Positions 43,915-48,110 of a DNA stretch of 64,000 nt are shown one piece after another. The DNA is from Acidimicrobiia bacterium (lineage in GTDB: Bacteria > Actinomycetota > Acidimicrobiia > IMCC26256 > JAENVU01), in contig JANYJV010000012.1 in NCBI GenBank assembly GCA_025361725.1, positions 1-64,000 on the forward strand, given 5' to 3'. The position numbers were made by a program, and so were the translations under genes. Below the pieces are notes generated by a model. The model saw nothing but the letters and a program-made list of their open reading frames with translations, did not search any database and had not been told where the DNA came from. The stretch's first letter is position 1. Each line of letters begins with the position of its first letter.

Positions 43915-44601
43915 TCATGCGTCAGCGGGGTCGACGAGGCGATATCCGATACCGGGTTCGGCCACGAGCATGGCCCCACCCGCTCGGCCGAGTTTCTTGC
44001 GAATCTGACTCGCGTAGACGCGCAAGTACTGGGTCTCGGTGTCGTATCCGGGACCCCAGACCTCGTGCAGAATTGTGCGATGGGTCAACACGCGTCCGGG
44101 GTGACGAGCGAGAGCGGCGAGCATTGCGAACTCCTTCGGCGTGAGTTCGACGGCCACCCCCGCCTGGGTGACGACGTGCCGGGCCAGGTCGATCTCGAGT
44201 CCGCCACATACGAGGACGGGATCGTCGGCACCCCGTGGGTCCGCACGACGCCGCAGGGCAACGCGGACACGAGCGAGGAGTTCGGGCATGGAAAACGGCT
44301 TGGTCACGTAGTCGTCGGCACCCTCGTCGAGTGCAACCACTTTGCGGTGCTCTGAGCCTTCGGCAGAGAGCACGATGATCGGGACGTCAGACCATGAACG
44401 AACCGTGCGACAGATCTCGACACCGTCCATATCGCCCAGCGCGAGGTCGAGGAGCGCTGCGTCAGGGGTTCGTGCCGTCAGCAGGAAGAGCGCCTCTCGT
44501 CCGGAGGACGCCGTCTGTACCTCGTAGCCGCGCGCGACCAACCCGGCTTTGACGGTACGCAAGATCGCCGGTTCATCATCGACGACGAGGATCGTGGTCA
44601 T
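43915..44601 (-). CDS. OmpR/KdpE-like response regulator
   Basis: ILVVDDEPAILRTVKAGLVARGYEV; winged-helix C-terminus LTHRTILHEVWGPGYDTETQYLRVYASQIRKKLG. Confidence 0.92.
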   Translation of the reverse strand: MTTILVVDDEPAILRTVKAGLVARGYEVQTASSGREALFLLTARTPDAALLDLALGDMDGVEICRTVRSWSDVPIIVLSAEGSEHRKVVALDEGADDYVTKPFSMPELLARVRVALRRRADPRGADDPVLVCGGLEIDLARHVVTQAGVAVELTPKEFAMLAALARHPGRVLTHRTILHEVWGPGYDTETQYLRVYASQIRKKLGRAGGAMLVAEPGIGYRLVDPADA

Positions 44602-45748
44602 GTCTGATCTCCGGCGTGGATCGGAACGGTGAAGGAGAACGTGGCACCGCCGCCGAAGGTACGACGGACGCCAATGGTGCCACCGTGCGCGATGACGATG
44701 GAGCGACAGATTGCAAGTCCGATGCCGGACGAGTTGCTGCCGCGCCCGCGTTCGAAGGGTTCGAACAGACGCTCGACCTCCTCGGGTGGGATCCCGATCC
44801 CCTGATCAGAGACCTCGAGACGCACCATCGGCTCGTCCGCAATTGCTGCGATCCAGACCTCGCTTCCGGCCGGAGCGTGGCGGGCGGCGTTGGCGACCAG
44901 GTTGGTCAATACCTGTTCGAGCCGTGAGTAGTCAGCACCGATGAGCGGGACGTCCGCCCGAACATCGACCCGCACGATGACGTCACGGAGGATCGGTGCC
45001 AGTTGTTTGACGCGGTCGGCGACGATGTCATGGATGTCGACGGCTTGACGGTCGGGCTCGAACACCCCGGCGTCGATCCGGCTCATGCTGAGCAGGTTGG
45101 CCACGAATCGATCGAGGCGGTCGACCTCGTCACACACCGTTGGAGGAGCTCGATGCGAGTCTCGGCGTCGTAGGACACATCGTCGCGGAGGTCGGTGGCG
45201 ACCGCGCGGATCGACGCCAGCGGGGTGCGCAGGTCGTGGGAGACCGAGCGCAAAAGGGCGGCCCGCTGCACGTCGAGTCGCTCGAGCTCCTCGGCGCGAG
45301 TCGCCTGCCGGGCGAGGTGCGTGCGTTCGTGACGGAGCTCTTCGACTCGTTCGTCGAGCGCGCGAATTCGCTGCGAGACCTCCGAGACTTCGGTCCGGCG
45401 GTGGACGAGTCGAGTGACGAGCTGGCCGACGAGGAGCGCGACCGCCACGAACGCTGCGAGTTCACCTCCTTGGTTGACGTCGGTGATGCTCAGGGTTCCG
45501 TAGGGCGGGATGAATCCGAGATTGAGCGTCAATGCGGCGGCGAGCGCAGTCACCACTGCCGCGATGGAACCCCCGACCGTGGCCGCCGCGACGACGACCA
45601 CGACGACCACGACGAGCGCAAGGGCGACGGTGGCGGGCGTGATCTCATCGCGTACCGGTTGCAGCACGACCCCGAGAATGGCGCTGGCGGCGACGCCAAC
45701 GGCCGAACCGAACCAGGGTGCGGTGCCGGAACCAGGTGCACGGGACAT
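44598..45748 (-). pseudogene. KdpD-like histidine kinase, interrupted by a one-base frameshift at about 45132-45136
   Basis: HDLRTPLASIRAVATDLRDDVSYDAETRIELLQ in one frame continues as CDEVDRLDRFVANLLSMSRIDAG in another; HATPase motifs follow. Confidence 0.8.
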
Positions 45749-45756
45749 GTAGACGA

Positions 45757-45809
45757 GATCTTTGCGCGATCTTTGCGGGAGTGCGTGCCGTCTTGATCGA
45801 TTCTTGATC
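45757..45809. promoter_or_regulatory. Phased direct repeats in kdpD/KimA-like divergent intergenic region
   Basis: GATCTTTGCG at 45757 and 45768; TCTTGATC at 45791 and 45802. Confidence 0.6.
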
Positions 45810-45831
45810 CCTCCTGCGGTTGACTCGCGCG

Positions 45832-47814
45832 GTGACTTCTTCGTTTGTTCGCGATGCCGAGGCCCTCCGTCCCCTCCCCGCAGCTCCTCACACGGAGATT
45901 TCGGAGTCTCGGCGCTACCTGTTGAAGTCGAAGTTGCTCGGACGGGCGCTCGACACGGACCAACTGCAACATGAGCGGCTCGGGCGACCGACCGCGCTCG
46001 CCGTGTTCGCGAGCGACGCGCTCTCATCGACGGCGTACGCGAGCGAAGAGATCCTGCGGACCTTGATTCCGGTGGTCGGACTGCTCGCCTTTTCATTTGT
46101 GCTCCCGATCACGCTGGCGATGGCCGCGGTGCTCCTGATCTTGATGTTCAGCTATCGCCAAACGATCAAGGCCTACCCGTCGGCGGGCGGGGCCTACATC
46201 GTGACGAAGGACAACCTCTGTCTGCTTCCTGCTCAGGTCGCCGGGGTGGCGCTCCTGACCGACCACATCCTGACGGTGGCCGTCTCCGTATCGGCCGGTG
46301 TGGCCGCGTTGTATTCGGCGTTTGGTGGCCTGCGTCCGTATCGCGTGCCGATTGCACTGGGATTCATCGCACTCATTGCGTGGGGGAACTTGCGGGGCGC
46401 GAAGGAATCCGGCCGCATGTTCGCGGTACCCACCTACGCGTTCCTTGTGAGCATGTTCGCCATGATCGGCGTCGGGATCTACCACGCATTGGCCGGTGGG
46501 CTTCACCACTCGCCGCTCCCGGCGGACCACGTGCAGGTGGGCGCGGCGGGATCGGTCGGCATCTTTCTGCTCCTCCACGCGTTCGCGTCCGGTGGCGCAG
46601 CGATGACGGGCGTCGAAGCGATCTCGAACGGTGTTCCCGCGTTCAAGGCCCCAGAGTGGAAGAACGCACGGTCCACCCTGATGGTGATGGGCGCGTGTCT
46701 CGGCGTGATGTTCATCGGCATCTCGTGGCTGGCGATGCAGATGCACGTCATCCCGAGCGACAAGAAGACGGTGATCTCACAGATTGCGTCTGGCGTCTTC
46801 GGGTCGGGGACCCTTGGCCACGTCCTGTTCCTCGTTATCCAGGGAACGACGATGCTGATCCTGGTCCTGGCCGCGAACACGAGCTTCGCCGACTTTCCCC
46901 GACTAGCGAGCTTCCACGCCGACGACCACTTCATGCCGAAGCAGTTGACGAAGCGAGGCCACCGGTTGGTGTTCTCCAACGGGATCGTGCTGCTCTCGGT
47001 CACAGCTGCGGGTCTCGTCGTGTTGTTCCAAGCCGACGTCACGCACTTGATCCCGCTCTACGCGATCGGCGTGTTCACGTCGTTCACGTTGTCGCAGGCG
47101 GGGATGTCGGTTCGCCACCTTCGGCTGCGCGAGCCCGGATGGCGAGTCGGACTCGCCATCAACGGCACGGGTGCGTTCGTGACGGGGGCCGTCACCGTTG
47201 TGATTGCGATCACGAAGTTCACACACGGTGCATGGGCGATCATGGTGTTGGTCCCGGTCTTGGTATTCCTGTTGGTGCGGTTGAACCGTCAGTACGAGTC
47301 TGAAAAGGATCAGCTCTCGGAGGGTGCCTTGGCCGCGACGACCCTGCCGGTGCTGCGCCGCCACACGGTATTGGTGTTGCTCGATCGATTGGATCGCAGC
47401 GCGGCACGTGCCGTTCAATACGCACGCACGCTCCGACCCGACGAGCTGCGCGCCGTACACATCGCCGCAGATCCTGAGGCGGCCGAGGCGCTGATGGTGG
47501 AGTGGCAGACGTTGCCGTTGTCACGATTCCCGCTGGAAATCGTCGAGTGCCCGGATCGGCGCATCGCACGGGCCGCGCTCGAAGTGGTGGCGGAAGAAGT
47601 GGCGGACGGGCGGACCGAGGTCACCGTCCTGCTGCCGCGGCGCGAGTACCAGGAGTTCTGGCATCGGTTCTTGCACGACCGGACGTCGGATTCGATAGCG
47701 CGGGCCCTCGGGGCGCTTCCACATGCGAACGTCACGTTCGTTCGGTACCACCTCACGTCACCATCGAGCTCGCCGAACTTGGTGGCGACGGCGCCTGAGG
47801 TATCGCCGCACTGA
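45832..47814 (+). CDS. APC-superfamily permease, KimA (YdaO)-like potassium transporter
   Basis: FASDALSSTAYASEEIL; SYRQTIKAYPSAGGAYIVTKDNL; long cytosolic C-terminal domain; GTG 45832 or TTG 45820 start. Confidence 0.82.
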   Translation: MTSSFVRDAEALRPLPAAPHTEISESRRYLLKSKLLGRALDTDQLQHERLGRPTALAVFASDALSSTAYASEEILRTLIPVVGLLAFSFVLPITLAMAAVLLILMFSYRQTIKAYPSAGGAYIVTKDNLCLLPAQVAGVALLTDHILTVAVSVSAGVAALYSAFGGLRPYRVPIALGFIALIAWGNLRGAKESGRMFAVPTYAFLVSMFAMIGVGIYHALAGGLHHSPLPADHVQVGAAGSVGIFLLLHAFASGGAAMTGVEAISNGVPAFKAPEWKNARSTLMVMGACLGVMFIGISWLAMQMHVIPSDKKTVISQIASGVFGSGTLGHVLFLVIQGTTMLILVLAANTSFADFPRLASFHADDHFMPKQLTKRGHRLVFSNGIVLLSVTAAGLVVLFQADVTHLIPLYAIGVFTSFTLSQAGMSVRHLRLREPGWRVGLAINGTGAFVTGAVTVVIAITKFTHGAWAIMVLVPVLVFLLVRLNRQYESEKDQLSEGALAATTLPVLRRHTVLVLLDRLDRSAARAVQYARTLRPDELRAVHIAADPEAAEALMVEWQTLPLSRFPLEIVECPDRRIARAALEVVAEEVADGRTEVTVLLPRREYQEFWHRFLHDRTSDSIARALGALPHANVTFVRYHLTSPSSSPNLVATAPEVSPH

Positions 47815-48110
47815 TGCGGGTCCTCAGCGCACCCGAGAAGATCGGTGTCGTCCGGTGGCGAGACCTCGCGACGGTCGAGGGCACGGTGAGATCGCTCCGA
47901 GCGCGTCCGTGGGCTGAGAACGTGGCGAGCGTGGAATGCACGCTCGTCGACGGGACCGGCGGGCTCGAGCTGGTGTTTCTCGGGCGCCGAAATGTCGGTG
48001 GGGTGGGTCTCGGCACCCGAATGCGCGCCTCCGGCCGTGTCGGCGCTCATCACGGGCGGTTGGCGATACTCAATCCGGTGTACGAGCTGATGCTGGCCGA
48101 GAACGGCTGA
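47814..48110 (+). CDS. OB-fold nucleic-acid-binding-like protein
   Basis: WRDLATVEGTVRSLRARPWAENVASVECTLVDGTGGLELVFLGRRNVGGVGLGTRMRASGRVG; TGATG coupling to permease. Confidence 0.7.
   Translation: MRVLSAPEKIGVVRWRDLATVEGTVRSLRARPWAENVASVECTLVDGTGGLELVFLGRRNVGGVGLGTRMRASGRVGAHHGRLAILNPVYELMLAENG

Follow-up and report, generated by a model that had tools for sequence, protein, structure and literature searches.

A predicted double KdpE-type operator at a kimA-like potassium transporter gene in an actinobacterial lineage

What controls a KimA-like potassium transporter gene that lies divergently from genes for a KdpD-like kinase and a KdpE-like response regulator? The question is raised by positions 45749-45831 of the window, which is our term for the whole 64,000-nucleotide stretch of DNA analyzed here.

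Four boxes between a kinase gene and a kimA-like gene

Read directly on the + strand, on which the kimA-like gene also lies, the intergenic region holds GATCTTTGCG twice (starts 45757 and 45768) and TCTTGATC twice (starts 45791 and 45802). Aligned on TCTT, four boxes follow one another at 11/21/11 nt (Table 1). The boxes and their phasing had been described in an initial annotation of this DNA, and both were confirmed on re-reading the sequence, with none of 20,000 dinucleotide shuffles reaching the four-box score of the 83-bp region. The limits of that region also hold, given a kimA start at GTG 45832; 83 bp then separate this codon from the start of the kinase gene (ATG 45748, − strand). In 50,000 shuffles of the same region, a combination of two distinct perfect 8-mer pairs, each at 11 nt, never arose. 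Across the 64-kb window, the site scored 28.3 versus 8.8 for the next independent site, and apart from the two pairs described here, TCTTNRYS-N3-TCTTNRYS had no exact match anywhere in the assembled genome. The box cores, TTTGCG and TTGATC, are one or two changes from published KdpE half-sites. The region thus holds what marks a KdpE operator, namely two TTTA(T/C)A-like half-sites in direct repeat with an 11-bp period.

Table 1. Features of the kimA-like locus, in window coordinates
Feature	Position	Strand	Remarks
KdpE-like response regulator (receiver + winged helix)	43915..44601	−	KdpE recognition helix residues kept
KdpD-like short kinase, C-terminal part (HATPase_c)	44598..45137	−	Other frame in present assembly
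KdpD-like short kinase, N-terminal part (DUF4118 membrane domain + HisKA)	45083..45748	−	Frame lost at about 45138
Box 1, KdpE-type half-site (predicted)	45759..45766	+	TCTTTGCG
Box 2	45770..45777	+	TCTTTGCG, 11 nt from box 1
Box 3	45791..45798	+	TCTTGATC, 21 nt from box 2; on −35 position of putative kimA promoter
Box 4	45802..45809	+	TCTTGATC, 11 nt from box 3; end 10 nt upstream of putative −10
Putative −10 hexamer, TTGACT	45820..45825	+	TTCAAT at equivalent place in same-genus genome G002
kimA-like K+ transporter	45832..47814	+	Likely start GTG 45832, 22 nt after box 4; mRNA probably leaderless

The transporter shows full-length homology to KimA of Bacillus subtilis (PDB 6s3k, residues 35-623, E 2.8e-118). 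The ORF caller placed the kimA start at TTG 45820; this codon is TTC in the same-genus genome G002, where the GTG is kept. In six loci, box 4 lies 22-23 nt from the KimA start codon, and the hexamer at the −10 position ends in T. When the published Escherichia coli footprint is placed on the sequence, the kdp start site falls ~20 nt after E. coli box 4. If the kimA mRNA is leaderless, the boxes stand at −73, −62, −41, and −30, compared with about −71, −60, −39, and −28 at E. coli kdp, and the kimA start codon and the E. coli kdp start site agree within about 2-3 nt. The kimA mRNA is probably leaderless, beginning at the start codon, and its promoter would share the geometry of E. coli kdp. Actinobacterial promoters differ from the −10/−35 consensus. 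A c-di-AMP riboswitch was also looked for, and Rfam gave no match near the window KimA.

Two further observations concern kimA genes. A small ORF (98 aa, 47814-48110) overlaps the kimA stop and is possibly a conserved KimA partner; a similar small ORF follows KimA at locus L140 (4180-4479). The genome also has a second KimA-like gene (contig C10, L031, 2786-4999), which is divergent from trkA and does not have the array.

On the other side of the array, the kinase comprises DUF4118, HisKA, and HATPase domains only. Because both the KdpD domain (PF02702) and the Usp domain are absent, we refer to it as a KdpD-like short kinase. Its gene carries an apparent frameshift (45137-45140, − strand) directly after the HisKA (phosphoacceptor) domain, though as the kinase is intact in three relatives (L085, L091, and L096), the frameshift could stem from misassembly or from a recent mutation. 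The label of KdpD-like kinase given in the initial annotation is therefore apt as to family but has to be qualified by the missing input domains and by the broken frame in this MAG.

The regulator has the receiver and winged helix of an OmpR/PhoB-type protein, and equivalents of Y191, R193, and R200 are present in its recognition helix; these are the recognition-helix residues of KdpE (PMC3264566). The corresponding stretch reads ETQYLRVYASQIRKKL in the window regulator and HSHYLRIYMGHLRQKL in E. coli KdpE, and T215 of KdpE is replaced by alanine. Two non-KdpE regulators of the compared set have D at position 193. The best NCBIfam family for the window regulator was KdpE (NF007820), at 199.5 bits against an equivalog cut-off of 325, and we therefore term it KdpE-like rather than KdpE. 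In a regulator tree that was weakly supported and mostly unresolved, also as to how KimA-linked and kdp-linked regulators are related, it lay nearest to the regulators of L091, L085, and L096, all of which are KimA-linked.

The array at other KimA loci and before kdp operons

In the same-genus genome G002 (L084), the flanking bases differ, but all four boxes and every spacing are retained. The initial annotation had staked its proposal on the boxes being shared by orthologous intergenic regions, and they are indeed conserved. We scored KimA promoters in about 60 loci with a half-site model independent of the window sequence, derived from four published sites only: two from E. coli (PMC3264566) and two from Mycobacterium smegmatis, on the other strand (PMC5401905). 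Among regions in which KimA diverges from a KdpD-like kinase and a KdpE-like regulator, eight of nine scored >16 with a layout of exactly 11/21/11; in the remaining one (L091), the four boxes stand at 11/20/11. Of 30 regions in which KimA diverges from trkA, none scored >16, the second KimA of the window's genome among them (Fisher p 1.8e-7 between the two classes, computed on 29 trkA regions). The array was also found at KimA genes with no kinase within 1.2 kb (L039, L102, L104, and L100), an indication that KimA is its target. Only two relatives came up when named genomes were scanned with KimA.

Upstream of kdp operons, too, the array is present, namely in Actinomycetota, several Proteobacteria, and E. 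coli K-12. The kdpF promoter of K-12 reads TTTTTATA-CTT-TTTTTACA-CCCCGCCCGCAGA-TTTTTGCG-AAA-TCTTTGCA, with N13 between the pairs, and is exactly 11/21/11; kdp promoters of Enterobacter, Duffyella, Ideonella, Cupriavidus, Azospirillum, and Mycetohabitans fit as well. In many Actinomycetota (L181, L182, L184, L187, and L190-L193), the array is inverted relative to kdpF, as in M. smegmatis, so that one fixed promoter geometry fails to cover all cases; the inverted M. smegmatis site nevertheless activates kdpF. The footprinted 22-bp KdpE motif of M. smegmatis was reported as not noticeably similar to KdpE sites of other origin (PMC5401905). Read on the other strand, it is CCTTGATG-GTT-TCTTTACG, the usual 11-bp direct repeat.

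A blind scan of 296 genomes of the class for the four-box pattern, allowing up to 3 mismatches, yielded 17 matches in 16 genomes, versus 0 for the pattern written backwards. Six matches were at KimA, and most others were at kdpA (KdpA at L159 being recognized by eye from its sequence), at kdpD, or at a short DUF4118 gene preceding kdp operons in this group. Two had no recognized potassium gene nearby, and L169 was uncertain.

We also note two features seen around kdp operons. Short DUF4118 membrane proteins with no kinase domain are, in this group, encoded before kdpF/kdpA (L139, 782-1561; L140, 7111-7851; L035, 3002-3715), often with a box array upstream. At L168, a four-box array (1501-1551; G040:C23:69594) lies beside an ammonium-transporter-like ORF, ~3.4 kb upstream of kdpA; this genome has another array at kdpA, and a wider regulon is possible.

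Binding protein, number of sites, and target gene

Judged from sequence, the window array is conserved and almost certainly a docking site for a KdpE-like regulator. Our main reading, to which we assign a probability of about 0.84, is that it forms a double KdpE-type operator at which two dimers of such a regulator would bind on one face of the helix and activate kimA. Each direct-repeat pair, at 11 bp, would take up one dimer of the phosphorylated regulator, and as the pairs are 32 bp apart, or about three helix turns, both dimers would lie on the same DNA face. With the downstream pair covering the −35 position and stopping 10 nt short of the putative −10, its dimer would be placed beside sigma for a PhoB-type activation. 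The adjacent short kinase, presumably upon low K+ or osmotic stress, would phosphorylate the regulator and so switch kimA on.

The identity of the binding protein has to be weighed against the other Kdp genes of the same genome. Contig C42 (L223, 10331-15615) carries a kdpB cut by the contig end, followed by kdpC, kdpD at full length, and the second kdpE of the genome. KdpA is missing from this assembly, and since C42 ends inside kdpB, we attribute this to an assembly gap; given the remaining genes, a complete Kdp system is almost certain for the organism. The KimA branch would thus be an additional, second Kdp-like branch and no replacement. A scheme of KimA instead of Kdp, at first backed by the missing KdpA, was ruled out by KdpC, KdpD, KdpE, and the partial KdpB on C42. 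The initial annotation had suggested that a KdpE-like regulator controls KimA rather than kdpFABC. Its first half agrees with our data, as the boxes match published KdpE half-sites and track the pairing of kinase and regulator with KimA; its second half does not fit, as the genome encodes KdpBC-KdpD-KdpE and the same array stands before the kdp operons of relatives and of E. coli.

The array might instead be a KdpE operator bound mainly by the canonical KdpE, with the local kinase/regulator pair being a decaying neighbor or a modulator. This is a possibility that we take seriously while holding it to be unlikely. The genome does encode canonical KdpD and KdpE, the recognition helix of the latter is almost identical to that of the local regulator, the local kinase is frameshifted, and arrays occur at the four kinase-free KimA loci named above. 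However, the array and the divergent kinase/regulator pair go together across several genera, and the kinases of L085, L091, and L096 are intact. This association, together with the intact kinases, suggests a dedicated kinase/regulator pair.

That the regulator binds a single pair, the other being a promoter element or a relic, seems doubtful to us. Footprint and binding work on E. coli KdpE, with half-sites TTTATA/TTTACA at kdpFABC, covers only the upstream pair, from −72 to −50 (PMC3264566), which leaves boxes 3-4 as a candidate site there; no mention of the second kdpF pair was found in the open-access literature searched. Box 3 lies across the −35 position, and several alphaproteobacterial kdp promoters (Rhizobium, Sinorhizobium, and Shinella) show a single good pair. 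Set against this is the spacing in three independent sets of regions: KimA-kinase (n = 9), Actinomycetota kdp upstream (n = 44), and plasmid plus E. coli kdp upstream (n = 17). When other periods and gaps were scanned, the mean score peaked sharply at period 11 and gap 21 in all three. With the best pair of each region fixed and a second pair sought 32 nt away, the second pair was strongly enriched (combined p 8.7e-11, 3.0e-27, and 2.9e-9, respectively), compared with a combined p of 0.99 for the trkA-linked control, and 32 nt was the top offset in each set. In 29 arrays selected because they display the pattern, the per-box consensus TCTT-N-ACG (TCTTNACG) is kept alike in both pairs while the spacers are barely conserved.

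The double operator could also serve mainly the autoregulation of the kinase and regulator genes and not kimA, as just 10 nt separate box 1 from the start codon of the oppositely oriented kinase gene. We regard this as improbable, given the arrays at KimA genes with no nearby kinase, the fixed distance from box 4 to the KimA start in six loci, and the reported lack of KdpE binding at the kdpDE promoter of M. smegmatis (PMC5401905). Functionless chance repeats, for which nothing but the small size of the region speaks, are excluded by the shuffles, the conservation, and the genome-scale control.

Relation to known potassium and phosphate regulation

On a broader level, we lean towards the view that, from Actinomycetota to E. 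coli, the KdpE operator comprises four half-sites at a fixed 11/21/11 spacing for two dimers, with a second half that has been overlooked even at the model kdp promoter, and that in one actinobacterial lineage it has moved to the KimA symporter, along with a short kinase lacking the KdpD input domains, to create a second potassium-starvation branch. Such an array would provide a sequence code for potassium-starvation promoters that is valid across phyla. It would reconcile the KdpE sites of M. smegmatis and E. coli, reported as unrelated, and it predicts a second KdpE site at the textbook E. coli promoter. KimA, best known as a c-di-AMP-controlled transporter, would be tied to Kdp-type two-component control.

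Compared with the KdpE site of E. coli kdpFABC, the window array has in common the direct repeats with an 11-bp period, the half-site T(C/T)TTNA(C/T)(G/A), and the 11/21/11 layout, and the two regulators are alike in the Y191/R193/R200 recognition helix. It differs in its target, a KimA-type symporter and not the Kdp pump, and in boxes that are enriched in C/G (TCTTTGCG and TCTTGATC). The M. smegmatis KdpE motif has the same half-site and spacing as the window but is inverted relative to kdpF, and its target is kdpFABC. Promoters with a pho box, bound by PhoB, are likewise built on 11-bp direct repeats, with an operator that ends about 10 nt before the −10; their half-site is TGTCA and their repeats are contiguous, whereas the window has two pairs 21 nt apart. 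Finally, B. subtilis KimA is a homolog of the window transporter whose expression and activity are described as being under c-di-AMP control (Gundlach 2019, as cited in PMC10117811), and KdpD of Firmicutes is described as binding c-di-AMP through its Usp input domain (PMC8214093). The window kimA, in contrast, appears to be under two-component control, through a kinase without Usp.
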